Virus record (IMG/VR): IMGVR_UViG_3300009537_000154
Span: 1 to 25,851 of that record
Reading direction: 5' to 3' (one strand)
Source of the DNA: a virus
Length of the DNA: 25,851 nucleotides
Numbering within the stretch: position 1 is the first letter of the stretch; the number at the start of each line of letters is the position of its first letter. Positions 12,252 to 22,878 of this stretch are shown here, piece after piece. The position numbers were made by a program, and so were the translations under genes. The notes beneath the pieces were generated by a model that was not told the DNA's origin, searched no databases, and was given only the letters and a program-made list of their open reading frames with translations.

Positions 12252-12929
12252 TTAATAATTTTCAATTTGTTTACCCCGCTTATCAACATGTATTTCATTA
12301 TGGCATTTAGGACAGAGCCATTTTACTTCAAGTGGTTTTGAATAATCCTCATGATGCGCATGCAATCTTTCTTTTATATTGCACAACTCACAATTATTTG
12401 GCTTATTCATATCACCTCTAATAAGCGCATTTCCAACAGCAAACCAAGCTTTCGCTTTGTCCCTATTATTTTTTCTAAACAATTTGATAGTTTCATAATT
12501 TCTCTTTTTCTGTTCCTTAGAAAGATTTTTATAACTTTCTCTAGAGATCTTCTGAAGCTTTTCCTTGTTAATTTTATAATATCGTTGATTATATGCCTTT
12601 TTTTCTTCGATTGGTCGGTTTTTTCGCCATTCCTTAAGCCTTTTAACAACTCGTTCTCGATTCTTCGCATGATACTCACACATATAATCAAGTTTTTGTT
12701 GCCTTTTTTCTTCAGGTAGACTTTTATTTCGTTCAACCCATTTCTCTTTGTTGCGTTCATAATATTTTCTACAACTAAGATTGGTTTTTTCACGATTTAA
12801 TCTTCTCCATTGACTTGTTCTTGTATTTTGACAAGTCTTGCAGTCTGATCGCAAACCCGACTTAAATCTCTTATCTTTGTAAAATTGACTCTCATCCTTA
12901 TTTTCTCCACATTTACTACATGCTTTCAT
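12252..12929 (-). CDS. HNH homing-type endonuclease
   Basis: A 225-residue protein. ATG 12929 is chosen over an in-frame start 39 bases upstream because GGGGG lies five bases before it. Residues 4-33 hold a zinc-finger-like Cys pair (CSKC ... CKTC). Residues 50-160 are charged helical repeats around YY-x-x-NKEK (RKYYERNKEKWVERNK; NQRYYKINKEKLQKISR). The C-terminal HNH core has CELC (180-183), AHHEDYSKPLEVKWLC (191-206), CPKCH and H214, i.e. zinc ligands and the catalytic His region. HNH homing enzymes nick or cut an allele lacking the insertion. The gene is far more AT- and Lys-rich than its capsid neighbours and sits between the capsid and decoration genes, as free-standing homing endonucleases often do. 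Confidence 0.88.
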   Translation of the reverse strand: MKACSKCGENKDESQFYKDKRFKSGLRSDCKTCQNTRTSQWRRLNREKTNLSCRKYYERNKEKWVERNKSLPEEKRQQKLDYMCEYHAKNRERVVKRLKEWRKNRPIEEKKAYNQRYYKINKEKLQKISRESYKNLSKEQKKRNYETIKLFRKNNRDKAKAWFAVGNALIRGDMNKPNNCELCNIKERLHAHHEDYSKPLEVKWLCPKCHNEIHVDKRGKQIENY

Positions 12930-12949
12930 AAGTACCCCCTTTTTCAAGG

Positions 12950-12978
12950 AGTATACCCAAACGGGCATTTATTGTGTA
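12950..12978 (-). promoter_or_regulatory. Candidate private promoter of the HNH gene
   Basis: Leftward TACACA (12978-12973) and TATACT (12955-12950) are 17 bases apart, just after the capsid stop. The predicted start site is about 14 bases before the HNH ATG, and that leader contains the GGGGG ribosome-binding site. Confidence 0.45.
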
Positions 12979-19242: not shown

Positions 19243-19424
19243 TGTACCACCATGTTAGTTTTAATTTTAATTGTTTCGGGGATGATCTTTGCGTTTTGAA
19301 GGGCTAGGTCGATAAGCTCTTTAATTTTGGGGTCGTCTGGGGTCATTATGACATCGTCATAGATGAGATGTTTCTGTTTGTAAGAAGAGTCTTCGCCTTT
19401 GATAACGACTGTCAATTCTAGCAT
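19239..19424 (-). CDS. Small unknown protein, first gene of the late operon
   Basis: A 61-residue protein with a GAAGGC motif eight bases before ATG 19424. It begins MLELTVVIKGEDSSYKQKHL, contains DDVIMTPDDPKIKELIDLAL and ends IPETIKIKTNMVVQ. One strand pair, an acidic loop and a helix can be seen. The last bases overlap the terS start as GTGA, so it is co-translated with terS. It lies about 40 bases past the predicted leftward transcription start. No family is recognised. Confidence 0.7.
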   Translation of the reverse strand: MLELTVVIKGEDSSYKQKHLIYDDVIMTPDDPKIKELIDLALQNAKIIPETIKIKTNMVVQ

Positions 19425-19472
19425 TTTATGCCTTCAGGCTATGTTGTAGGGGCTGTTGTTGTTATATTCGTC

Positions 19473-19502
19473 AGTATATAGGATTTATTTTTTTTTTGCC
19501 AA
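19473..19502 (-). promoter_or_regulatory. Leftward promoter of the late (terminase-virion) operon
   Basis: TTGGCA (19502-19497) and TATACT (19478-19473) are separated by 18 bases, most of them A or T. The predicted start is about 40 bases before the first late gene. It is back-to-back with the rightward promoter at 19527-19555, only about 25 bases away. Confidence 0.6.
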
Positions 19503-19526
19503 CAAATTCTTTTTCTTCTTTTTTTC

Positions 19527-19555
19527 TTGCGAGTAAATCGCTTGTGTGGTATGCT
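19527..19555 (+). promoter_or_regulatory. Rightward promoter P1, extended -10
   Basis: TTGCGA (19527-19532), a 17-base spacer, and TATGCT (19550-19555) preceded by TGG make an extended -10 promoter. The spacer holds CTTGTGTG, echoing CTTGCGAG 15 bases earlier; both halves are kept in the second copy at 21108-21136. Confidence 0.7.
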
Positions 19556-19595
19556 TGGGCTATAAACAAACACAAACGTAGAAAGGAGTATAAGA

Positions 19596-19784
19596 ATGAT
19601 TAAATTTGACAAGGCCAGAAAGATATCGTCAACAGGGAAGTACTATCACACTTTTGTGGCGATTTGGGACAAGTTAGACGACAATTTAAAATCGAGGCTG
19701 ACATCATACGAGCTATCGTTAGTGATTGATTGTATGTTTTCACAGCATCAAGCGGGTTTTGCAAAGGGATTAAGGAACAATTAA
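19596..19784 (+). CDS. Small unknown protein, first rightward gene
   Basis: A 62-residue protein with GAAAGGAG upstream of ATG 19596, in the leader of promoter P1. It begins MIKFDKARKISSTGKYYHTF, has WDKLDDNLKSRLTSYELSLV and ends FSQHQAGFAKGLRNN. Probably one helical domain, mildly basic. Small first genes of an early phage operon are often host-interaction factors, but nothing here identifies a target. Its stop falls inside the first base block of repeat cassette R1. Confidence 0.7.
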   Translation: MIKFDKARKISSTGKYYHTFVAIWDKLDDNLKSRLTSYELSLVIDCMFSQHQAGFAKGLRNN

Positions 19785-19863
19785 TGCTTTAAGCTTTCCT
19801 CTGGCCCCTTGCGGGGGGCCAGGATGAGAGTTTAAACAAACACAATAGAAAGGAGTGTTCAAG
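19779..19863 (+). repeat. Intergenic cassette R1: tail block, 8-bp hairpin, RBS block
   Basis: Starts with AATTAATGCTTTAAGCTTTCC, then hairpin CTGGCCCC/GGGGCCAG (19801-19808 with 19815-19822), then GTTTAAACAAACACAA and GAAAGGAGTGTTCAA before ATG 19864. It is near-identical in its flanks to R2 (20090-20175), while the hairpin differs with paired changes. No U-tract follows, so it is not a standard terminator. Confidence 0.8.
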
Positions 19864-20103
19864 ATGAGAAATCAAAAAGAAAATTTCGTAGAAGTCGAAT
19901 TTAGAGATGATATTTATACGCTTACACAATTGCCACACATTGATGGACGTGATGATGATGTTTTTTATAGTGGTACAGCAGTTGACGAAGACGGAAATTA
20001 TTATTACATTGCCTGGGAGGTTAAGGAGGGATACGAAAAAATGGAAGACGAGTCGGACCATTGCGACTGGTCTAAACCATGTACGGTAGAATTAATGCTT
20101 TAA
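19864..20103 (+). CDS. Small acidic unknown protein
   Basis: A 79-residue protein. ATG 19864 is chosen because AAGGAG ends eight bases before it; the in-frame GTG nine bases upstream would overlap that site. It begins MRNQKENFVEVEFRDDIYTL, has HIDGRDDDVFYSGTAVDEDG and YYYIAWEVKEGYEKMEDES, and ends CDWSKPCTVELML. Strongly acidic, with a Tyr/Trp-rich strand centre and one Cys pair, an acidic single domain that could mimic DNA or bind a basic partner; this is speculation. Its last codons lie inside the start of repeat R2. Confidence 0.72.
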   Translation: MRNQKENFVEVEFRDDIYTLTQLPHIDGRDDDVFYSGTAVDEDGNYYYIAWEVKEGYEKMEDESDHCDWSKPCTVELML

Positions 20104-20175
20104 ACTTTCCCCCAGCCCCTTTAGGGGGGCTGTGATGAACGTTTAAACAAACACAACATAGAAAGGAGTGTTCAA
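20090..20175 (+). repeat. Intergenic cassette R2, partner of R1
   Basis: Begins ATTAATGCTTTAAAC, with hairpin CAGCCCC/GGGGCTG (20113-20119 with 20126-20132), then GTTTAAACAAACACAA and GAAAGGAGTGTTCAA before ATG 20176. Compared with R1 the flanks match almost base for base, while the stem has lost a pair on both sides and changed a pair, as expected if the pairing itself is selected. Confidence 0.8.
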
Positions 20176-20355
20176 ATGAATAAATACGAACTAAATGGCC
20201 TGGGTCCAATTTGGGTATGGGAAGCTGACAGTGAAGAAGAAGCAACCAAAATTTTCTTGAGTGAGCAGGGTTTTAAATCGGAAGAGGCGTTTATCAAATA
20301 TTTAACTGAAGATGTTGGGGTTAAGGATGCGGTTATTTCGTGGAAAAAAGTTTAA
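20176..20355 (+). CDS. 59-residue unknown protein
   Basis: A short frame starting at ATG 20176, five to six bases after AAGGAG within the cassette R2 block. It reads MNKYELNGLGPIWVWEADSE, then EEATKIFLSEQGFKSEEAFI and ends VGVKDAVISWKKV. The pattern, a beta strand followed by two helices and a closing strand, resembles many small phage proteins with a single alpha/beta domain. Stop TAA ends at 20355, 14 bases before the next ATG, whose AAGGAG lies in that gap. No family is recognised. Confidence 0.78.
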   Translation: MNKYELNGLGPIWVWEADSEEEATKIFLSEQGFKSEEAFIKYLTEDVGVKDAVISWKKV

Positions 20356-20369
20356 ATTAAGGAGTTTAT

Positions 20370-20567
20370 ATGTCAGAAGTTTGGGAGTTAGTTGAGCACA
20401 GACATTGTGGGAGGCGGTTTTACGCACGGACTAAAGAGACCGATGCAAGGCTTAAGCTATTTAATCGGAAGTGTTTACTGGCTGGAGAGATTGAGCTTTT
20501 AGAAAAAACTGGGTGTAAATTTGAGATATACCCTTACGAATCGTGTGAATATAAAGGAGACAAATAA
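20370..20567 (+). CDS. Small unknown protein
   Basis: A 65-residue protein starting at ATG 20370 after AAGGAGTTTAT. It begins MSEVWELVEHRHCGRRFYAR, with KETDARLKLFNRKCLLAGEI in the centre and EKTGCKFEIYPYESCEYKGD near the end. Four Cys residues are spread through it (13, 35, 49, 59), which could form a metal or disulphide site, although spacing is irregular. Its stop is directly followed by the next start with no gap. No family is recognised. Confidence 0.7.
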   Translation: MSEVWELVEHRHCGRRFYARTKETDARLKLFNRKCLLAGEIELLEKTGCKFEIYPYESCEYKGDK

Positions 20568-20888
20568 ATGAGTACACAAGTAGAAGATTTTTTAGACGAG
20601 AATGCAATCTTTGATTTTTCGGTGGATTATTACCGTGATCTTTGCGAACAGCTGGCACCACTCTTGCGTCAACAGAAAGAGCTTGAGTCAAAATGCAAAA
20701 AGTTGCGAGAGCAGGTTTTAACCCACGCCGGAGGGGATAGGATGGAGTACGGCATTAAGGTGACAAAAAGAGAGAGGGCCGGAGCGGTTGATCTCAAAAA
20801 ACTGGTTGAGGATGGAGTTATTAGCCAAGAAATTTTAGAAACATACAGGAAGGAGCCTACGGAATTTTACGAAGTGAGGAATTACTAA
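20568..20888 (+). CDS. Coiled-coil protein, recombination-accessory-like C-terminus
   Basis: A 106-residue protein, ATG 20568 touching the previous stop, with AAAGGAG eight bases upstream. Residues 1-25 are acidic, residues 26-55 form a helix or coiled coil (LCEQLAPLLRQQKELESKCK), and the C-terminal half, MEYGIKVTKRERAGAVDLKK then EDGVISQEILETYRKEPTEFYEV, resembles the tail found on phage YqaJ-type exonucleases and their accessory proteins. The enzyme itself is not in the window. The relation is weak and based on pattern only; it could equally be an independent small protein. Confidence 0.6.
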   Translation: MSTQVEDFLDENAIFDFSVDYYRDLCEQLAPLLRQQKELESKCKKLREQVLTHAGGDRMEYGIKVTKRERAGAVDLKKLVEDGVISQEILETYRKEPTEFYEVRNY

Positions 20889-21106
20889 TGGGCTTTTTGA
20901 AAGAATTATTTTGCAAGCATGAATACAAGCTGGTCGGATGGGGGGCGTGTCACGACATGCCGTCATACACGAGATCGGGGTCTTATATTTTACTCACGTG
21001 CAAAAAGTGCGGTAAGATTGAGCAGACGAACATCGTTGAAAACCTGGGCGATGAGTCGATTGAAGGATACTGCAAGAGAAAAAATATTGAGTTTGTGAAT
21101 ATTTAG
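20888..21106 (+). CDS. Small zinc-ribbon-like protein
   Basis: A 72-residue protein whose ATG shares one base with the previous stop (TAATG). It has FCKHEYKLVGWGACHD near the N-terminus, LLTCKKCGKIEQTN in the middle and EGYCKRKNIEFVNI at the end. The CKH and CKKCG pairs could bind zinc, as in the small phage proteins of the C..H ... C..C type. No catalytic motif is visible. The stop lies two bases before the -35 of promoter P2, so it ends the first rightward transcription unit. Confidence 0.68.
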   Translation: MGFLKELFCKHEYKLVGWGACHDMPSYTRSGSYILLTCKKCGKIEQTNIVENLGDESIEGYCKRKNIEFVNI

Positions 21107-21107
21107 C

Positions 21108-21136
21108 TTGCGAGTAATTAGCTTGTGTGCTATGCT
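21108..21136 (+). promoter_or_regulatory. Rightward promoter P2, copy of P1
   Basis: TTGCGA (21108-21113), 17 bases, TATGCT (21131-21136) with a TG element before the -10. A block of about 46 bases starting with CTTGCGAGTAA matches P1, including the CTTGTGTG in the spacer and ATAAACAAAC after the -10. Confidence 0.7.
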
Positions 21137-21154
21137 TAAGCCATAAACAAACGA

Positions 21155-21176
21155 CCCCTGGTCGCTAGGCCAGGGG
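21155..21176 (+). promoter_or_regulatory. 5' leader hairpin of the P2 transcript
   Basis: CCCCTGG (21155-21161) pairs with CCAGGGG (21170-21176), extendable inward by a U-G and a C-G pair to leave a GCTA tetraloop. It starts about 12 bases after the predicted transcription start, ahead of AAAGAAAGGAG and ATG 21205. A capping stem that protects the transcript is plausible. Confidence 0.6.
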
Positions 21177-21204
21177 CCACAAAACAAAGAAAGGAGTACA
21201 ATTT

Positions 21205-21474
21205 ATGAATAACGGAGATGAAAAAAAAAGGGAAGCAGAAATTCGCAGGGCTGCACGGGCTGAGGCGGAAATGAAGCAAGATCAAGAGAATTTAGAGGAT
21301 GCGATTTTCGAGCTGTTCAATAATCAAATGGAAATCTGTGAAAGGAACCCAAATAAAGATTTGATCAAGGGGTGCAAATATTTAATGCAAAGATTTGACT
21401 TAGACACTCGGTTTTTGCCTGAGCGGCTATATGATGCGGTTGTTGGGGAGGCTTGTCCAGATGTGCTCGACTAA
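21205..21474 (+). CDS. Small helical unknown protein, possible paralogue of next gene
   Basis: An 89-residue protein after AAGGAG. It begins MNNGDEKKREAEIRRAARAE, a charged helix, and then has QENLEDAIFELFNNQMEICE, LIKGCKYLMQRFDLDTRFLP and ERLYDAVVGEACPDVLD. The second half shares a spacing with the following gene: a hydrophobic helix, (F/Y)(D/N)LD, and an R-x-(Y/R)-D helix. No DNA-binding or catalytic motif is clear. First gene of the P2 unit. Confidence 0.68.
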   Translation: MNNGDEKKREAEIRRAARAEAEMKQDQENLEDAIFELFNNQMEICERNPNKDLIKGCKYLMQRFDLDTRFLPERLYDAVVGEACPDVLD

Positions 21475-22176: not shown

Positions 22177-22878
22177 TTAAACTTTCAATTTATTTTTGTC
22201 CCATAGTTCTTTCCAATACATGCAATGGATTTCCGCATACTCCCTGGGATTTAGTCCATAGGAGCCAAAACACATACCGCGATTTACTTCTATCAAAAGT
22301 TGTTCTCCATTGGAGGTTTCTCCAACATCAAAACAATAACTACTGTGTCCAATATCTACAGATTCTATATCTTCAATTAATTTTATGGGCGGCTGTTTTT
22401 TCCAATCACCTCTATATTGCCTCACATCAATCACTTTTCGATTTAACACAAAACATCGCCATTCATGTGCAATATTTTTATACTCTTGGCACCAAACAGG
22501 GACAGTATCATACAAATGTAGAAACATTAATGGATCAAATAGCTGTGGTTTAAATATGCCTTTTTCAAAAGGCTTGATGAAATAACCATTTTTTTCTTCT
22601 TTGAGAATCGTTACCACATTTGTTATTTGAATGTCCCTTTTGTAAAAGGATGCCAATTCATTAGGAAAATCCCCTATGAAAAAATCCTTTTTTTGTGCGT
22701 TTTTTTTCCATAGTTCCAAGCATCTTTTGTCACCGACGACTATATACGATTCATAACTTTCAGGTATTTGGTAAATGCTTTCATATTTTATGATTTCGAT
22801 TCCGAGATAAGTTAAGCCGGAGACAAGTTTTCTTAAATCGTAATCATCTGATAGCGCAGGAAATGTAATAGCAATCAT
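22177..22878 (-). CDS. ATP-grasp ligase-like protein, probably R2K clade
   Basis: A 233-residue protein. ATP-grasp hallmarks include a Lys after the first fold (YFIKPFEKGIF, K102), EWRCFVLNRKVIDVRQYRGD (R141 onward), and the metal-binding end CFDVG (D184) with IEVNRG (E197, N199). The short N-terminal half and conserved Arg plus two Lys match the R2K clade, which is known from phages and predicted to ligate amino acids or peptides onto proteins. The start ATGA-overlaps the 51-residue lipoprotein, so the pair is co-translated. A substrate is not identified. Other ATP-grasp ligases are possible. Confidence 0.72.
   Translation of the reverse strand: MIAITFPALSDDYDLRKLVSGLTYLGIEIIKYESIYQIPESYESYIVVGDKRCLELWKKNAQKKDFFIGDFPNELASFYKRDIQITNVVTILKEEKNGYFIKPFEKGIFKPQLFDPLMFLHLYDTVPVWCQEYKNIAHEWRCFVLNRKVIDVRQYRGDWKKQPPIKLIEDIESVDIGHSSYCFDVGETSNGEQLLIEVNRGMCFGSYGLNPREYAEIHCMYWKELWDKNKLKV

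Follow-up and report, generated by a model that had tools for sequence, protein, structure and literature searches.

The RNase III sites of phage T7 (R0.3 to R1.3) are intercistronic hairpins of the early polycistronic mRNA, built of two helices with an internal loop and repeated as related copies in one genome. REP/MITE-type elements are also short imperfect palindromes, scattered over intergenic sites. In T4-like myoviruses, stem-loop cassettes termed PeSL recur between small early genes and have been proposed to mediate gene shuffling (Arbiol 2010 and Comeau 2014, as cited in PMC4503421 and PMC3950731). The locus compared with these systems here lies in a 25.85-kb virus record, a podovirus-like phage fragment analyzed over its whole length of 25,851 nt (the window), for which a search of an isolate collection returned no close relative. 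Its portal (phrog_156) and terminase genes run leftward, and small early genes begin at 19596 and run rightward, divergently from the terminase. They encode proteins of 62 aa (19596..19784, stop codon at 19782-19784), 79 aa (19864..20103, UAA stop at 20101-20103), and 59 aa (20176..20355), all on the plus strand, and family searches with the 62-aa and 59-aa genes gave no match.

The 79-aa gene has one hairpin on either side, R1 (19787..19837, plus strand), downstream of the 62-aa gene, and R2 (20098..20148, plus strand), ahead of the 59-aa gene. The two represent a single ~49-nt RNA hairpin and form a two-copy direct-repeat family with 81% identity over 75 nt (19771-19845 and 20082-20156). Each is followed by a leader with a ribosome-binding site, at 19838..19863 for R1 (AAACACAATAGAAAGGAGTG..., matching the leader of the promoter-like block P1 described below) and at 20149..20175 for R2; the ribosome-binding parts are 91% alike. 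R1 folds at −29.7 kcal/mol (z −4.8, covariance-model match of 63.4 bits) and R2 at −22.0 kcal/mol (z −4.2, 66.3 bits), values equaled by 0 of 200 dinucleotide shuffles in either case. The lower stem TTTAARC-T-TTC / GAR-N-GTTTAAA occurs in both copies, as does the internal loop, which is conserved and reads CUC/GGAU in R1 and CCC/UGAU in R2; above it lies the GC-rich upper stem. Aligned in register, the copies differ at 11 of 51 positions without breaking a single consensus pair. Two upper-stem pairs are altered on both arms (U-A to C-G and G-C to A-U), and two lower-stem wobbles of R1 become Watson-Crick pairs in R2 (G.U to A-U and U.G to U-A). One R1 pair is lost in R2 (U-A to U.C) at a non-conserved position, and the remaining differences fall in loops and the bulge. 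These comparisons bear out the earlier note, which had singled out repeated cassettes with paired stem changes; the GC-rich stem that it described is present and makes up only the upper half of the structure, the lower stem and the conserved internal loop having been missed. A slid pairing of the upper stem was rejected in favor of one with a one-base bulge, which pairs better.

Further copies were sought in other phages. An alignment of the small terminase subunit yielded 22 loci, one of which, L174, has a topologically identical hairpin at a junction of two early genes, with a homolog of the 79-aa gene immediately downstream. This copy was located by synteny and not by folding, and the core set of R1, R2, and L174 was likewise not chosen by fold. 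Scanning a viral collection with a pattern derived from these three returned 19 stretches, among them four additional folded copies, at L192/L196, L200, and L202, and L174 itself, recovered as L205; a looser scan added L334 among the matches listed. With a covariance model restricted to R1, R2, and L174, scores of 34.5–41.8 bits were obtained for L202, L192/L196, and L334, compared with a best score of 28.0 bits for 74 pattern matches in cellular genomes; 0 of these 74 cellular matches, which served as the negative control, score like a copy of the element. L200 reaches 24.2 bits with the three-sequence model, where it is not separable from chance, and becomes separable only with a six-sequence model that includes L200 itself. 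By these sequence comparisons the same predicted structure recurs at gene junctions of no fewer than five further phages, which makes six lineages counting the window, with at least seven distinct copies in all.

No Rfam 15 family matched the whole window at gathering threshold, and scanning 19400-21300, L192, L200, L202, and L205 at a weak threshold gave unrelated sub-threshold matches only. A search of the open-library literature did not find a description of the element, which is weak evidence of novelty, and the exact leader pattern had 0 matches in viral contigs. Most relatives identified via TerL and capsid have no small-gene region, and the element is absent from every one tested, as it is from isolate phages related to the L200 and L202 neighbors (HTVC103P and CV-1-33). 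Distant homologs of the 79-aa gene, found in Salinivibrio phage SMHB1 and on Paenibacillus plasmids, are all without the hairpin, and a tie between the hairpin and this gene family as such was therefore rejected.

Covariation was assessed on seven distinct copies (R1, R2, L174, L192/L196, L200, L202, and L334), aligned with MAFFT and with pairs counted on one named structure; all seven show the stems, the loop, and the position at a stop/start junction. In the consensus, the lower stem (YUUAARY…RYUUAAR) has 7+3 bp and the internal loop is asymmetric, with CYC on its 5' side and NGAU on its 3' side; the GC-rich upper stem is free in sequence and had been left unconstrained by the search patterns. 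Across the alignment 98.3% of pair cells are paired, and nine pairs, in 22 cells, are changed on both sides. The covariation score is 0.647 compared with 0.228 ± 0.044 for shuffled alignments and at most 0.20 for slid partners. Unpaired stem differences, named beforehand as the observation that would speak against a structured element, are thus not what the additional copies display. Invariant in all seven are the UUAA arms, U10, U11, C13, C15, and GAU with the following A, the invariance of UUAA outside R1, R2, and L174 being partly ascertainment: four of the seven copies were picked by a pattern requiring TTAA arms and then by fold. Y14 and the bulge base N40 covary, U occurring with G and C with U or C. 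On the sense strand there are 10 G.U pairs and 1 A.C pair (p 0.006, a figure partly biased by selection, as fold-picked copies favor G.U). This covariation in other phages, together with the junction context described next, strongly supports the proposal that selected pairing marks a functional RNA part; the companion claim of free sequence applies to the upper stem but does not extend to the UUAA arms, the CYC/NGAU loop, and the orientation, all of which are conserved.

Among the matches listed, 6 of 6 structured pattern-found copies lie between a same-strand stop codon and the next start, a position shared by 4 of 161 other pattern matches (p = 8e-9, slightly overstated because L192 and L196 are related). 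The upstream stop is inside the 5' arm in R2, L174, L192, L200, and L202 and 2–3 nt 5' of the element in R1, L196, and L334, and all six lineages are sense-oriented (p 0.016). The operons concerned are polycistronic and early or structural, and the major capsid gene is among the contexts. Distribution is sporadic over phages and operons that are unrelated, and each record other than the window, with its R1/R2 pair, has a single copy. In L174 the Shine-Dalgarno (SD) sequence overlaps the 3' arm of the hairpin, in R1, R2, and L334 it follows the hairpin by at least about 12 nt, and in L200 and L202 an SD is not clearly recognizable. General SD masking was rejected, the SD being outside the hairpin or unclear in the latter copies.

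At the level of sequence, a structured, sense-strand, intercistronic element is thereby established, and it is best read as a portable intercistronic cis-RNA. Its position exactly at the stop/start junction suggests that it probably cuts or insulates the shared mRNA, and the layout of two helices and an internal loop between early genes, like that of T7 sites, makes RNase III-type processing the likeliest step. We tentatively propose, at somewhat less than even confidence, that R1 and R2 belong to an uncatalogued conserved phage cis-RNA that serves as a cistron-boundary signal through RNase III-type cutting at the internal loop; taken by analogy, the element is most likely an RNase III-type processing or stabilizing site. 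Acting within the polycistronic mRNA, it would present two stacked ~10-bp helices to a putative double-strand-specific endonuclease of host or phage. The predicted cut at the internal loop would leave a protected 3' end on the upstream mRNA and provide the downstream gene with its own short leader and ribosome-binding site. Because the upstream stop codon is in or just before the 5' arm, terminating ribosomes would reach the lower stem at most, and the upper stem would stay folded. In the arrangement of two ~10-bp helices around an internal loop between cistrons the element agrees with T7 sites, yet the T7 core (AAGGUC-RYUC / GAGUGGCCUU...UAUGAUU) is unrelated to it and the R1 model found no match in T7 up to E 10. 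Conservation of the loop sequence across unrelated phages also exceeds what an RNase III normally demands, for which a specific binder, or common descent together with mobility, may be the reason. For phage biology, such an element would add an uncatalogued, covariation-supported cis-RNA family with a searchable consensus, and it raises two testable questions: how cistrons are separated in dense phage early operons, and whether RNA parts move with small-gene cassettes between unrelated phages.

The latter question touches on a different reading, possible but on balance doubtful, in which the element is mainly a recombination boundary, comparable to PeSL, that permits insertion, loss, or duplication of single small genes; the 79-aa gene plus one R copy would be such a cassette. 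The gene at 19864-20103 is indeed bounded by R1 and R2, and the sporadic occurrence in unrelated phages and operons is as expected for a gene-cassette joint. In the one strain pair of the set, L196 moreover has one extra 75-aa gene compared with L192, exactly at the 7-nt 5'-arm sequence TTTAAGT, left of which the two are 96% identical and right of which they are 100% identical over 835 nt; this junction is compatible with exchange at the element but may be an assembly chimera in L192. Recombination requires neither conserved pairing that includes G.U nor strict sense orientation, and family relatives exist without the element. The idea of a duplication unit for gaining small genes receives no more than suggestive support, from the 79-aa gene between R1 and R2 and from the difference between L192 and L196 at the 5' arm. 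PeSL are the nearest precedent for R1 and R2 as cassettes. By comparison with them, the R structure has a conserved internal loop and no terminator U-tract, the window is a podovirus-like fragment and not a T4-like genome, and R1 and R2 lack the promoter block of P1 and P2, so that only P2 combines promoter and stem-loop. We consider equally doubtful, though worth stating, a portable RNA gene-junction in which a small conserved element spreads with single-gene cassettes between unrelated phages, supplying a 5'-arm stop to the preceding gene and a processed, insulated leader to the next.

Translational coupling or insulation without cleavage is improbable. Ribosomes ending at the 5'-arm stop would melt the lower stem and expose the ribosome-binding site of the following gene, and the upper stem would hold the two cistrons apart, a scheme consistent with the stop codons in or 2–3 nt before the 5' arm and with the SD of L174. 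The distant SD of R1, R2, and L334 and the lack of a clear one in L200 and L202 argue against it, and the conserved internal loop is left unexplained. That loop is the core of a slightly less probable proposal, a binding site for a phage or host RNA-binding protein (a repressor or anti-decay factor) that reads CYC/NGAU; invariant C13, C15, and GAU with its following A, and the covariation of Y14 with N40, are consistent with such a reader, but the contexts are as different as early genes and the major capsid gene. An intrinsic terminator or attenuator is highly improbable despite the GC-rich stem between genes, because a U-tract, sought after the upper stem (NGAURAR) and after the full hairpin, follows in 0 copies. 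Just as remote is a DNA palindrome, either an operator or a tiny mobile element at TTAA, which the TTAA in both arms and the sporadic distribution might suggest, given that all six lineages are sense-oriented, G.U outnumbers A.C by 10 to 1, and none of the copies found lies inside a gene. Unlike REP/MITE-type elements, the hairpin occurs in one or two copies per genome, strictly in sense orientation between stop and start, and with no transposase link seen.

Two promoter-like blocks accompany the early genes. P1 (19527..19571, plus strand) has the form TTGCGA-17-TATGCT with an extended −10 and the start of a leader, and is without a hairpin; P2 (21108..21152, plus strand) is near-identical, with 84% identity over 51 nt, and a 30-nt block common to both has 2 matches in the window sequence and 0 in 100 shuffles. 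The P2 leader carries a simple 9-bp GC stem (21155..21176, plus strand; z −3.6, with 1 of 200 shuffles as good), followed by AGAAAGGAGT. This third stem, which the earlier note had already set apart from the repeats, is real, and it gives no covariance-model hit and hence is no member of the R family. In the leftward direction it has the look of a weak terminator; with its promoter and stem-loop, P2 is PeSL-like in make-up. A search with the 106-aa gene led to L084/L085, where the layout is shared but the following gene is preceded by a simple hairpin of another kind.

The window gene at 21205 and its 31%-identical L085 counterpart are each led by a hairpin, unrelated in sequence, that of L085 being located between the homolog of the 106-aa gene and the next gene. 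Three relatives (L109:11597-11621, L140:8552-8575, and L127:11547-11566) also carry simple GC hairpins immediately ahead of a ribosome-binding site, similarly far downstream of the major capsid gene and with differing sequences; this position-conserved stem is possibly a separate attenuator. Several consecutive small early genes of L184 share a leader type, AACAACAAAGGAT, before the start codon, a further case of a translation-initiation leader that is repeated. L192:1179-1206, in a phage contig, gives a near-threshold match to a CRISPR direct repeat (RF01317, 34.7 bits compared with a threshold of 35), and the large terminase gene of L084/L085 (before 4019, minus strand) has, by eye from the sequence, an apparent intein-like insert. 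In the window, a 238-aa minus-strand ORF (12252-12968) inserted directly downstream of the major capsid gene is, judged by its motif, a candidate free-standing HNH-type homing endonuclease, and 22177-22878 encodes an ATP-grasp protein of the R2K clade (Pfam PF18299, 1e-25), here phage-encoded.
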